A stretch of 64,000 bases of DNA from Chloroflexota bacterium. GTDB taxonomy: Bacteria > Chloroflexota > Dehalococcoidia > Lucifugimonadales > Lucifugimonadaceae. Under the pieces are notes generated by a model. It was not told the origin of the DNA. It did not search any database and was given only the letters and a program-made list of their open reading frames with translations. Made by a program: the position numbers and the translations under genes. The stretch is from assembly GCA_027618835.1 (NCBI GenBank), contig JAQCHZ010000010.1, forward strand, positions 31,131 to 95,130, given 5' to 3'. Positions 24,745 through 30,008 of this stretch are shown here, in pieces. Every line of letters starts with the position of its first letter. Position 1 is the first letter of the stretch.

Positions 24745-25089
24745 CTAAGCCTCCCATTCTGAATCGAACGCCAAACTCATCGGGTACCACCAGTCATCTT
24801 CCGCAGCCTGCGGAACCTTCTGCTGATAAGTCGACATCAGATCGTTCCACTCTTTAGCCCGCTTCGAAGCCGTATAGCTCTGGAAATCACGGCGTGGATC
24901 GAAATCGTCGGGAACCGTGCAGTACATGAACAGATGATTTCCGCTTCGGAAAATCTCCATCCGCTCGATTCCGATGCCCTTCAGCGCCTCAAGTACCTCG
25001 GGCCACACGTTGCGGTGGTACTCCTCATACTCGGCAATGATCTTAGGATCGTCTTTGAGGTCCAAAACCTGTGCAATCGACTTCGACAT
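24745..25089 (-). CDS. L-rhamnose mutarotase family protein (variant active site)
   Basis: This 114-residue dimeric ferredoxin-like protein belongs to the family (RhaM, COG3254) that interconverts alpha and beta anomers of L-rhamnose. It has the Y-x3-H motif (Y21, H25 in EYEEYHRNVWPEV) and the RMEIFRSGNHLFMY strand pair. Where RhaM has a second catalytic tyrosine (Y41 in the E. coli numbering), this protein has methionine (M44), so activity or substrate may differ. It is transcribed divergently from a more canonical homologue 270 bp away. Confidence 0.85.
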   Translation of the reverse strand: MSKSIAQVLDLKDDPKIIAEYEEYHRNVWPEVLEALKGIGIERMEIFRSGNHLFMYCTVPDDFDPRRDFQSYTASKRAKEWNDLMSTYQQKVPQAAEDDWWYPMSLAFDSEWEA

Positions 25090-25362: not shown

Positions 25363-25686
25363 ATGCAACGAGTCGGATTCGAGATGAAAATCCACCCTGA
25401 AATGGTCGCTGAGTACAAACAGCGCCATGACGATATCTGGCCTGAAATGTCGGAAGCCCTAATACGAACAGGCTGGCGCAACTACACGATCTTCTTCCGA
25501 GAAGACGGCACTCTGTTCGGATACGTGGAGTGCGACGAATCGCACGAGGCATCAATCGCTGGGATGTCCAAAGAAGACGTAAACCAGCGTTGGCAAGATG
25601 ATATGTCGCCGTTCTTCCAACTACCCGAAGGCGCCCACGCCGATGAAAACATGACCACCTGGCGAGAAGTCTTCCACGCCGACTGA
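25363..25686 (+). CDS. rhaM: L-rhamnose mutarotase
   Basis: The 107-residue protein aligns with RhaM over its length. It has Y18 and H22 (EYKQRHDDIWPEM), Y41 (RNYTIFFRE) and the tryptophan segment NQRWQDDM. It would speed anomer interconversion of L-rhamnose or a related 6-deoxy sugar ahead of isomerase or dehydrogenase. No other rhamnose catabolic gene adjoins it, but rhamnonate dehydratase-like genes lie at 5-8 kb. Confidence 0.9.
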   Translation: MQRVGFEMKIHPEMVAEYKQRHDDIWPEMSEALIRTGWRNYTIFFREDGTLFGYVECDESHEASIAGMSKEDVNQRWQDDMSPFFQLPEGAHADENMTTWREVFHAD

Positions 25687-25858: not shown

Positions 25859-26977
25859 ATGACCGACCAACCCAGCAAAAAACCAACACCCTCAGAAAAA
25901 GTGCGAGTGGCACCACCTCGCCTAACTTCCGACTCGCTTGAACTTCCCGGGCCGCTCGAAGCCATCGAAGCCTTCTTCGAAAACGGCTGGTCGGATGGCC
26001 TGCCAGTAGTCCCTCCAACGCCCGAAGCCGTCACGGTGATGCTCAGTGCCGCCAATCTCGCACCCGACGCCATACTCGGTGTTGAACCCGTAAAAGGTGC
26101 CGTAGTCACTGCCGAAAAAGCAGCCATAAACGCCGTAATGGCAGGATGTAAACCTGAGTACATGCCAGTCGTCGCTGCGGCCGTCGACGCCATCACACAA
26201 CCCGAGTTCAATCTCCACGGAATCACTGTTTCCACGATGGGTGCGGCGATCATGCTGATCGTAAACGGACCGATAACCGAAGAGCTCGGGATTAACGGAG
26301 GCGTTTCAGCGTTTGGGCCCGGCTACCGAGCAAACGCAACGATCGGTCGGGCCATCCGACTCATCGTGATGAACGTTCTTGGTACCAGAAGCAACGACGG
26401 ACTCGATAAGGCAACGCTCGGTCACCCCGGCAAATACACATGGTGCGTAGCCGAAAACGAGCAGGTCTTGCCCGATAACTGGAGTCCGCTGCACGTGACC
26501 CGAGGCATCGACGAATCGGAAAGCGCCGTAACCGTCGTATCTGGTCTCAGCGCAACTCAGTTTGGTGAGCACGAAGCCAACACACCAGAAGGCATACTCG
26601 ACGCCTTCGCCCAACGCCTCTACCCAATGGGGCCCGGCGTAAAACAGGTGATATTGGTCATATGCCCCGAACATGCCGCCCACTTCACGACCGCTGGATG
26701 GAAGAAAGAGCAAGTTGGACAGTACCTGTACGAAAACGCCACAAAGCTGACCTCTGAATGGATCGCAATGGGTCTGCCAAGCGGGGCGCAAAAAGACTCA
26801 AATGCAGAACTAAGCATTGAAAACGGCGACCCGCCAATAAGTGTTTTAGATTCGCCCGAATCGGCGATACCAATCGTAGTTGGCGGCGACGGTGGAGCCT
26901 GGAGTGCGGTAATCCCGCCGTGGTCGCTGGGTTCGCGGTCAAAAATCGTCACCCGGCCGATCATCACAAACAAGTAA
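25859..26977 (+). CDS. Conserved protein of unknown function, partner of the UGSC selenoprotein
   Basis: The 372-residue soluble protein starts with a low-complexity polar segment, then GPLEAIEAFFENGWSDGLPVVPPTPEAV, the KAAINAVMAGCKPEYMPVVAAAVDAI helix, GINGGVSAFGPGYRANATIGRAIRLI and TLGHPGKYTWCVAENE. Near the C-terminus it has IVVGGDGGAWSA. Conserved cysteines in MAGCKPE, YTWCVAE and VICPEH might support redox or metal chemistry, but no catalytic motif is recognised. It lies 33 bp upstream of the UGSC selenoprotein gene and is probably co-transcribed. I do not know its function; joint action with the selenoprotein is inferred from position. Confidence 0.75.
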   Translation: MTDQPSKKPTPSEKVRVAPPRLTSDSLELPGPLEAIEAFFENGWSDGLPVVPPTPEAVTVMLSAANLAPDAILGVEPVKGAVVTAEKAAINAVMAGCKPEYMPVVAAAVDAITQPEFNLHGITVSTMGAAIMLIVNGPITEELGINGGVSAFGPGYRANATIGRAIRLIVMNVLGTRSNDGLDKATLGHPGKYTWCVAENEQVLPDNWSPLHVTRGIDESESAVTVVSGLSATQFGEHEANTPEGILDAFAQRLYPMGPGVKQVILVICPEHAAHFTTAGWKKEQVGQYLYENATKLTSEWIAMGLPSGAQKDSNAELSIENGDPPISVLDSPESAIPIVVGGDGGAWSAVIPPWSLGSRSKIVTRPIITNK

Positions 26978-27010
26978 GATGTCATGAGAAGAATCTTGGA
27001 GGAGCGTCAT

Positions 27011-27565
27011 ATGACAACCAATGCAAGCGAGAACACATTCAGGGTTCTCGATCCCACCGCACCACAGTCAATTGCGACCGATGGTATGGCAGAACGTCCC
27101 GAGTCGCTACAGGGTTTGCGCGTCGGTCTTCTTCGCAACGACAAGCTCAATTCAGAACCGCTTCTCGATGCTATCTACGATGTGCTTGCCGAACGATTTG
27201 ATGTCGCCACTGCCTACAAAATAAACAAAGGCGACGCATCTCGACCCGCCGAACCCGATCTACTCGGTGACTTTTCGAACGAAGTCGATGTTGCGCTACT
27301 CGCAAACGGCGACTGAGGAAGCTGCTCGTCGTCCAGTGTGTACGACTCGCTAAAGCTCGAAGCTCTCGGCGTTCCTGCGATCGCAATTTGTACCGAACCG
27401 TTCAAATCAGGTGCCAAAGCAATCGCCAATCTCGGCGGCATGCCCGACTACCCATTCGCTCTAATCCAGCACCCAATCGGCAGCCTAACCCTCGAACAAA
27501 TCCGAGAACGAGCAATAGAAGCAGCACCGCAGATTCTAAGCTCGCTATTGGCTCGGCGATCCTAG
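27011..27565 (+). CDS. UGSC-family selenoprotein (in-frame TGA read as selenocysteine)
   Basis: An excellent GGAGGAG lies 6 bases before the ATG at 27011. The frame reaches TGA at 27314-27316 (codon 102) and continues open in the same phase to TAG at 27563-27565, giving 184 residues with Sec102. The local reading is ALLANGD-U-GSCSSSSV, which is the defining UGSC motif of a (seleno)protein family known mainly from environmental bacteria. After it come LEALGVPAIAICTEPF and YPFALIQHPIG, both family-like. U102 and C105 could form a selenenylsulfide redox pair. A stem-loop at bacterial SECIS distance follows the TGA. Standard gene calling would split or truncate this gene. Reaction and substrate are unknown. 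Confidence 0.88.
27328..27346 (+). promoter_or_regulatory. Candidate bacterial SECIS hairpin
   Basis: GTCGT (27328-27332) pairs with ACGAC (27342-27346) around a 9-base loop CCAGTGTGT that contains a GU at 27336-27337. The loop begins 17 bases after the TGA, within the spacing typical for SelB-dependent SECIS elements inside bacterial coding regions. A short outer GCT/AGC pairing (about 27321 and 27353) may extend the stem. Confidence 0.6.
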
Positions 27566-27575
27566 TGCATAAACT

Positions 27576-28787
27576 TTGCCAACATTACGACAACTGCCAT
27601 TAGTCCAGCTTCTCGCCAAAGGCTCGTACCGAGATCTCGTAACCAGCAACTTCACCAACATGATGGGCGTCGAACTGCGCATCATGGCCCAATCATGGCT
27701 GATTCTCGAACTCGGAGCCTCGCAAATCTGGGTCGGAGCCGCAACCGGACTTTGCGTCGTTCCAGCGCTTGCAATCGGACTATTTGCCGGGGTCATGGTC
27801 GATCGACTCGGTGGTCGATCCGTCTTGATATTCGAACGCTTACTCCTCCTACTGCTGGCGGTAGTTACAGCGGCTGTTGTAGTAGCAGGCGTGGTGAATC
27901 TGTGGCAAATAGTCGTTCTATCGATCGTGTCGAGTGCCGTATTGGCAATAGGGATGCCCGCTGGCCAAACTCTGGTGATGCACTACCTACCTAAAGAATC
28001 GCTCCAGGCAGGAAATTCACTGAATATGGTTGGCGCCAGCCTTGTCCGAGCAGTAGGGCCGCTCGCCGGTGGGTTTCTTATCGCAGGCTTTGGATTGGGA
28101 TCACCATTTCTCGCACTCATCGGTTTATACGCACTGTCGGTCTACTTCACTTATCGACTGCCAAGGTCAGAGCGCAGCAAGCCCTCTGGAACATCAGCCC
28201 TCAGAGAGATTAGCGACGGCCTAAAGTACATCAAATCCAACCCCGTACTGTTTCGCGTGATGCTCATAGCGTTCTCGGTGATACTCAGCGCAGCAATGGT
28301 TCCGATCATCCCGGTCTACGCCCGCGACCGGTTTGATGTTGGCGAAACCGGATTCGGAATCATGCTTGCGGCGTGGGCGGTTGGGCAAGGCGCGTCGGCA
28401 CTGTGGATAGCGTCTAAGAAACCGTGGGAGCGCAACGCTCCACCAATCTTGATCAGCACGGTTCTATTCGTCGTTGCCGATATTACGTTCGCACTATCGA
28501 CAAATTTTCCGCTCACCCTCGCATCTCTGGCTTTGGTCGGCGCTGCTATTCCCGTTTGGGCATCATCAACGATAACCCTGCTCCAAACGCAGTCCGATCC
28601 CAAGATGATCGGCAGAGTGATGTCAGTGTTCACCCTCTCGCTGCAATCGATGATGTTGGGCTGGTTCTTGGGCGCTTGGATCGGTACGATCATTGGGAAC
28701 GCCCAAATGATCATCATCGGAACGCTCATCTACCTAGTCGTGAACTTCGGACTAATCTTCAGCTCCCGAGATCTACGACGCTTATAG
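27576..28787 (+). CDS. MFS transporter (MFS_3/EntS-like branch)
   Basis: The 403-residue protein has about twelve membrane segments. It starts at a TTG 11 bp after the selenoprotein stop, so it is probably in the same operon. YRDLVTSNFTNMMGVELRIMAQSWLI in TM1, the DRLGGRSVLI loop and RAVGPLAGGFLIA around TM5 are typical of the EntS-like exporters. Export of a product made by the upstream pair, or import of its substrate, would fit. The substrate is unknown. Confidence 0.85.
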   Translation: MPTLRQLPLVQLLAKGSYRDLVTSNFTNMMGVELRIMAQSWLILELGASQIWVGAATGLCVVPALAIGLFAGVMVDRLGGRSVLIFERLLLLLLAVVTAAVVVAGVVNLWQIVVLSIVSSAVLAIGMPAGQTLVMHYLPKESLQAGNSLNMVGASLVRAVGPLAGGFLIAGFGLGSPFLALIGLYALSVYFTYRLPRSERSKPSGTSALREISDGLKYIKSNPVLFRVMLIAFSVILSAAMVPIIPVYARDRFDVGETGFGIMLAAWAVGQGASALWIASKKPWERNAPPILISTVLFVVADITFALSTNFPLTLASLALVGAAIPVWASSTITLLQTQSDPKMIGRVMSVFTLSLQSMMLGWFLGAWIGTIIGNAQMIIIGTLIYLVVNFGLIFSSRDLRRL

Positions 28788-29102: not shown

Positions 29103-30008
29103 TTGCTACCTGAATTCATCGATACGCACCACCACCTCTGGGACCTCGAAAACAACCCCTACCCGTGGCTCATGGAACCCATCGATCACTTCGTTGGCGA
29201 CTACTCACCAATTCGTAAATCGTGGCTAATTGGCGATCTGCACGAAGGTGCAAAAGACATCCCGCTAGTGAAATCAGTTCATGTTCAGGCTGAATGGGAC
29301 CACAACGCCGATCCCGTTGGCGAAACCGCTTGGCTGCAGTCTGTAGCCGATGATCCCAACTCAAAAGGCATGCCAAACGCCATCATCGCCTACGCGAACC
29401 TCTCCGATCCAAACGTCGAAGCAACGCTAGAGCGACACGCCAGCCACGCCAACTGGCGCGGTATTCGCCACATGCTCAACTGGTCCGACGACAAGCCGAA
29501 TTTCCGATTCGCCGAAGCCGGAAACCTAATGAGCGATCCCCAGTGGTTATCTGGATTCAAACTACTCGAAAAATTCAACGGCTCGTTTGAAGTCCAAATA
29601 TGGCCTTGGCAGCTTCAGGAAGCAGCCAAGCTTGCCAACGATATTCCCGAAGTCCAAATCATTCTAGGCCACGCCGCAATGCCAATCGGTCGAACTCCTG
29701 GCGATCTACGAGAATGGCGAAAAGGACTCGAAGCCCTCGGAACCGCCCTGAACGTCTCTGGAAAAATCTCAGCACTCGGAATGCTCGACAATCAGTGGAC
29801 CACCGATTCGATCGCACCGTTCGTACTCGATATGATCGACATTCTCGGCATCGACCGCTGCATGTTCGCTTCGAACTTCCCAGTCGACAGCCTCTTCAGC
29901 GACTACAACACCGTTTGGAACGCCTACGACGAAATCACCTCAGATTTCACTGACACTGAGCGAGCGAAATTATTCAGCGAAAACGCCGAAAAGTATTACC
30001 GAATCTAG
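29103..30008 (+). CDS. Amidohydrolase family protein (amidohydro_2, COG3618-like)
   Basis: This 301-residue TIM-barrel metal hydrolase has the N-terminal FIDTHHHLWDL metal motif, VHVQAEWD in the next strand, RGIRHMLNW, the ILGHAAMP histidine and the late SNFPVDSLF aspartate. COG3618 members include lactonases for sugar lactones (L-rhamnono- and L-fucono-lactonase, 4-sulfomuconolactonase), which would suit the nearby mutarotase and dehydratase genes. The likely start is a TTG with no clear ribosome site. Confidence 0.85.
   Translation: MLPEFIDTHHHLWDLENNPYPWLMEPIDHFVGDYSPIRKSWLIGDLHEGAKDIPLVKSVHVQAEWDHNADPVGETAWLQSVADDPNSKGMPNAIIAYANLSDPNVEATLERHASHANWRGIRHMLNWSDDKPNFRFAEAGNLMSDPQWLSGFKLLEKFNGSFEVQIWPWQLQEAAKLANDIPEVQIILGHAAMPIGRTPGDLREWRKGLEALGTALNVSGKISALGMLDNQWTTDSIAPFVLDMIDILGIDRCMFASNFPVDSLFSDYNTVWNAYDEITSDFTDTERAKLFSENAEKYYRI

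Follow-up and report, generated by a model that had tools for sequence, protein, structure and literature searches.

A predicted UGSC-family selenoprotein and its constant partner in a Chloroflexota genome: candidate subunits of a selenium-dependent reductase

The window analyzed in this study, a stretch of 64,000 nucleotides of a Chloroflexota bacterium (assembly GCA_027618835.1, contig JAQCHZ010000010.1, positions 31,131 to 95,130), carries two adjoining genes on its forward strand. These are (i) an open frame encoding a protein of 372 residues (positions 25859..26977), referred to below as the partner, and (ii) a gene of the UGSC selenoprotein family (27011..27565; 184 residues), which is interrupted at codon 102 by an in-frame TGA (27314..27316), the predicted codon of selenocysteine (Sec). 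The comparisons described below point to these two genes as a constant unit, which may encode a two-part selenium enzyme.

The frame of the UGSC gene begins with the ATG at 27011, and a likely ribosome-binding site, GGAGGAG (26998..27004), lies six bases upstream; a second in-frame ATG is found at 26984. The TGA of codon 102, which gives the motif U102-G-S-C105, is the only one in a frame that is otherwise open up to its stop codon at 27563-27565. When this TGA was read as cysteine (Cys) for scoring, the read-through protein exceeded the cut-offs of both models of the family, NCBIfam NF041046 (131 bits, cut-off 125) and Pfam PF24696 (176.2 bits, cut-off 25), and the Pfam match spanned the TGA, running from residue 11 to residue 179. 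The frame, the ribosome-binding site, the motif and the family assignment proposed in the initial annotation were all found in the sequence. The family is already known, and the gene at 27011-27565 is a new member of it, with selenocysteine as the predicted reading of its TGA.

The TGA is retained in relatives. In the 12 best partner loci (11 from the same genus, including the window, and one from the same order), the UGSC gene was located 3′ of the partner gene and the TGA was kept at the same place in 11/11 of the other loci. The source genome encodes three UGSC genes, with exactly one TGA in each. In a phylum-wide sample of 301 genomes, UGSC genes were identified in 32; these gave 71 matches, 68 of which contained one TGA and three none, and one of these three was a fragment without the motif region. 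There are also homologues with Cys in place of the TGA, for which the initial annotation had suggested a check: all 15 aligned Cys homologues, drawn from 26 full-length matches, had Cys at this position, in the motif C-G-S-C. On this comparative evidence, we regard the TGA as conserved and not as an error. A few divergent members were also noted. The UGSC proteins P0169 and P0170 have an extra C-terminal stretch; of 17 rows, two matched NifU in NCBIfam and one a NifU-like Pfam domain. In locus L054 the UGSC gene is in two pieces at different places of the frame and is possibly broken or misassembled.

The source assembly (2,407,166 bases; 88.94% complete) contains all four components of the Sec machinery that were looked for, over the respective cut-offs. 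These are selA (513 bits, cut-off 267.9), selB (318 bits, cut-off 242.25), selD (366 bits, cut-off 125), the frame of which itself carries a TGA, and tRNA-Sec, reported by ARAGORN as tRNA-SeC with the anticodon tca. Judged by its gene content, the genome can make selenocysteine.

The genes of this machinery may also be found beside those studied here. Within the flanks of the partner-UGSC pair, frames of a selA-like cluster were present in 6/80 loci (L105, L122, L126, L127, L128 and L137), five of which also had SelB-like frames (named by eye), as if the Sec machinery travelled with the enzyme. In all four tested genomes of the loci with SelA-like frames, selA was detected over the cut-off no more than about 5 kb away from the UGSC gene and on its contig. 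Three genomes with loci of the Cys form were checked for selA: Cupriavidus pauculus and Achromobacter veterisilvae gave one match each, and no match was obtained in Candidimonas nitroreducens.

Bacterial Sec codons are expected to be followed by a selenocysteine insertion sequence (SECIS), and the initial annotation proposed a hairpin of this type with GU in its loop. In the register of the family (T of the TGA being base 1), bases 16-22 pair with bases 26-32, and G23 and U24, which we take to be the bases known from fdhF of Escherichia coli, lie in the loop; in the window this SECIS-like stem-loop occupies positions 27329..27345 of the forward strand, with the loop G-U at 27336-27337. The window's own 48 bases folded no better than dinucleotide-preserving shuffles (z 0.15; 102/200 shuffles were as good), and alone the hairpin is not significant.

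Its position and register are supported by the comparison of 87 distinct Sec homologues. In this set 90.3% of the cells of the seven pairs were standard pairs, with 20 pair types and 58 two-sided changes, and none of these three values was reached in any of 500 column shuffles, a test that preserves the make-up of the columns and not the relatedness of the sequences. When the partner strand was slid out of register, the paired share did not exceed 55%. The clearest sign of a SECIS constraint is the choice of codon at bases 22-24: among the Sec genes, Ser was encoded by AGT in 65/65 cases and Cys by TGT in 11/11, while the eight distinct Cys-form genes had AGC, TCA, TCG, TGC and one TGT. The G-U at bases 23-24 was present in 78/87 Sec genes versus 1/8 Cys genes. 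Seven of the nine Sec genes lacking it had TC at these bases and may constitute a shifted sub-group. The median folding z was −1.56 for 94 Sec genes and −0.25 for nine Cys genes, which, being based on mononucleotide shuffles, is only a hint. The SECIS is therefore supported because it is conserved over the 87 Sec genes, and not by the folding of the window itself. In two loci of the Cys form with the motif CGAC (L090 and L092, record titles actinobacteria), a SECIS-like hairpin still folds after the Cys codon, which perhaps reflects a recent change from Sec to Cys.

No family of Pfam or NCBIfam matched the partner at E 0.01. Nearly all scored candidates (7,992/7,999) were its relatives at E ≤ 0.001, and the closest named ones came from records entitled Chloroflexi or Dehalococcoidia. 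A scan of named genomes yielded 575 partner loci, of which the best 80, a set biased to near relatives, were analyzed. In 70 of them a UGSC gene adjoins the partner gene on the same strand, which bears out the expected conservation of this neighbourhood; the partner comes first in 67 loci and UGSC in three, with 61 UGSC genes of the Sec form and nine of the Cys form. The gap between the two genes ranges from −12 to 218 bases, except in L097 (1,219 bases), where a second copy of the partner lies in between. The ten loci without UGSC comprise L068 (which ends 40 bases past the partner), L082, L116, L135 and six loci whose record titles name Poribacteria. The record titles of the partner loci cover Chloroflexi, Alpha-, Beta-, Gamma- and Deltaproteobacteria, Actinobacteria, Rokuibacteriota, Gemmatimonadota and Binatia. 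In the reverse search, starting from UGSC, the partner was detected within 1.5 kb on either side in 27/29 loci of the phylum. Moreover, the other two UGSC genes of the source genome encode fusions, with UGSC as the first domain and the partner as the second.

The pairing in 70/80 loci and in 27/29 loci of the phylum, together with the two fusions, indicates that the partner and UGSC are the constant unit, as far as gene order can tell. Since the same partner stands beside UGSC in many unrelated bacteria, the two proteins likely form one selenium enzyme. An apparent kinship between the UGSC and partner profiles (probability 99.8) was rejected as an artefact, some rows of the partner alignment having retained the end of a UGSC domain.

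UGSC genes are multiplied in some genomes. Ten further chosen genomes contained 1, 1, 1, 2, 4, 7, 7, 7, 10 and 21 matches, and 60 of these 61 matches carried one TGA, the other being a fragment. Taken with the phylum sample, the number of matches reaches 21 in one genome and 10-11 in others. The genome of locus L123 (G332, uncultured beta proteobacterium RBC024, approx. 6 Mb), with its 21 matches, each with one TGA, contains an unusually large set of selenoprotein paralogues.

The best matches of the UGSC protein outside its own family were GrdB and PrdB, the Sec subunits of glycine, sarcosine, betaine and D-proline reductase. In profile alignments of UGSC with GrdB/PrdB, UxxC falls on UxxC (P from 1.2e-5 to 5.1e-8; weaker with the motif masked). 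The predicted order of secondary structures in the Sec domain is alternating alpha/beta, and a structure model of a UGSC homologue matched the PurE, LarB and B12-binding folds. No thioredoxin-fold chain was present among the 50 listed matches of this model, an absence that excludes nothing, and sequence searches yielded no credible solved relative of either the UGSC protein or the partner. A flavodoxin/PurE-like alpha/beta fold of the Sec domain, in which Sec opens the helix that follows a strand, is supported by the model but not proven. Likewise supported but not proven is a distant kinship of this domain with the domain that carries Sec in GrdB/PrdB.

The surroundings of the pair are far less uniform. 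Ten bases past the UGSC stop codon, the window contains a gene of a major facilitator superfamily (MFS) carrier (27576..28787, forward strand), which the initial annotation counted as the third member of a three-gene unit. The carrier is probably co-transcribed with the pair here. A promoter scan found no promoter. Among 92 loci, one of which is the window itself (L189), a close match of the carrier (at least 70% identity) was found in only four others (L191, L192, L187 and L061); this count is a lower bound, as the sequence of loci L186-L197 stops about 900 bases after UGSC. In other relatives an amidohydrolase gene takes its place next after UGSC, and the MFS gene was consequently rejected as a constant third member. 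More generally, within the runs of same-strand genes that adjoin the pair, no third gene family recurred in over 3/80 loci, and the largest cluster formed from 633 neighbouring frames was represented in 14/80. A Pfam search with 44 of the 72 frames of the same-strand runs gave a mixture of catabolic families. Upstream of the pair there are two rhaM genes of the L-rhamnose mutarotase family (24745-25089, reverse strand, and 25363-25686, forward strand), and close relatives keep them next to the pair in 12 other loci. The amidohydrolase gene of the window (29103-30008, forward strand) encodes an L-fucono-lactonase-like protein that scored below the cut-off (83 bits versus 400). The Cys-form loci L106 and L107 continue with genes of a CoA-transferase III and a pyridine-nucleotide-disulphide oxidoreductase, the latter of which is a possible electron donor.

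A Sec subunit of the GrdB/PrdB type, a constant partner that is not a pyruvoyl protein, and multiplication in some genomes lead us to propose that UGSC and its partner are two-part selenium-dependent reductases acting on varied substrates, a proposal to which we give about an even chance of being correct. The UGSC protein and the 372-residue partner would form a complex, in which the partner would bind the substrate, taking the place that the pyruvoyl subunit (GrdE/PrdA) has in the reductases already known. In the small substrate held by the partner, a carbon-heteroatom bond would be attacked by Sec, giving a covalent Se-carbon or Se-heteroatom intermediate. The Cys three residues after Sec could then resolve this intermediate as a selenenyl sulfide, to be re-reduced by thioredoxin or a flavoprotein resembling thioredoxin reductase, and the paralogues would differ in substrate. 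A broader version, held more tentatively and at somewhat under even chances, is that the pair represents a second, widespread branch of the glycine/proline reductases, in which the pyruvoyl subunit was swapped for an unrelated substrate-binding protein and which radiated by duplication into many reductases of diverse organic substrates, outside the amino-acid fermentations from which this chemistry is known.

Several results weigh against this proposal. With the UxxC columns masked, the score of the comparison with GrdB/PrdB was 19.2 (23.5 with a wider mask), the best unrelated family reaching 19.6, and much of the signal therefore sits in the motif. The protein of the window scored 11.9 and 13.5 bits with GrdB/PrdB models whose cut-offs are 602.2 and 300 bits, respectively, and the Pfam family GRDB (PF07355) was matched neither by this protein at E 0.01 nor in the set of 68 UGSC rows at E values up to 10. 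A profile comparison revealed no kinship between the partner and GrdE (score 2.1), and the partner was discarded as a GrdE homologue. In the source genome, at 88.94% completeness, no gene of the GrdB or GrdE families was found, including the pyruvoyl partner GrdE/PrdA (PF09338). Six Poribacteria-titled loci (L074, L086, L087, L088, L094 and L100) encode the partner with no UGSC gene nearby, and the partner may therefore act alone there. Finally, the neighbouring genes are too variable for a pathway to be named from them.

Another explanation is that of a broadly protective thiol oxidoreductase or peroxidase that contains Sec and cycles between selenol and selenenyl sulfide, with the partner as its protein substrate or chaperone. 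The UxxC motif fits such an activity, the available text of the 2008 Global Ocean Sampling (GOS) paper calls UGSC a likely thioredoxin-fold redox protein, and a 2026 review, in the part available, places it among mostly uncharacterised redox selenoproteins. We nevertheless consider this explanation unlikely, as the structure model is flavodoxin/PurE-like with an alternating alpha/beta order, and as up to 21 UGSC copies in one genome, and the constant pairing with or fusion to a large protein, suit substrate-specific enzymes better. The initial annotation suggested a redox or detoxification pathway: a redox role agrees with UxxC and with the kinship to GrdB/PrdB, but detoxification gained no support, and up to 21 matches in one genome would point to substrate-specific metabolism rather than to general protection.

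It is also conceivable, with a still smaller probability, that the partner is itself a catalytic hydro-lyase or ligase, and that UGSC only activates or regulates it through redox or through delivery of metal or sulfur. This idea derives from a match of the partner to class I fumarase and the alpha subunit of the two-subunit fumarase, which is weak, with a high root-mean-square deviation and about 10% identity, as are its matches in Foldseek and VIA; the cysteines are not all conserved. That the TGA is an ordinary stop, ending a protein of 101 residues and followed by a relic, is very improbable. TGA normally is a stop, and most of the best UGSC matches are annotated as predictions of 101 residues, but the protein goes on resembling the family beyond the TGA, as far as residue 179, the Cys homologues are full length, and the TGA is kept in 11/11 other loci of relatives, under a SECIS constraint and in a genome with Sec machinery.

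If the proposed two-part reductase is real, selenium-dependent reductive bond cleavage would not be confined to the fermenting anaerobes from which it was described but would reach far outside them. The obligate-looking partner and the GrdB/PrdB kinship give this orphan family the shape of a defined two-protein enzyme, amenable to expression and activity assays, and Cys versions of UGSC are available in cultured bacteria, among them actinobacteria such as Georgenia or Microbacterium with a natural Cys pair or fusion. The initial annotation knew of no established reaction for UGSC, in agreement with the 2026 review, which in its available part lists the function as uncharacterised; in the open-access literature that was searched, as far as its text was available, we found neither a reaction nor a statement of kinship with GrdB.

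Within known systems, the gene described here belongs with the UGSC-containing protein of the GOS survey (NF041046/PF24696), with which it shares the UGSC motif, the existence of Sec and Cys forms, and, in other members, fusion to a second domain. According to the available text of the 2008 paper, that family comprised 255 sequences, was among the more abundant selenoprotein families of ocean and freshwater metagenomes, and included fusions with a domain named Unknown_1, which is likely the partner domain. The pairing with a partner gene and the kinship with GrdB/PrdB are not described in that text.

The UGSC protein differs from GrdB/PrdB (TIGR01917, TIGR04483, TIGR01918, PF07355) in scoring far under their cut-offs and in having a partner that profile comparison separates from GrdE. 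It resembles them in the order strand, UxxC, helix, and in the Glu-x-x-Gly-Ile/Val-Pro turn that follows UxxC and leads into the next strand.
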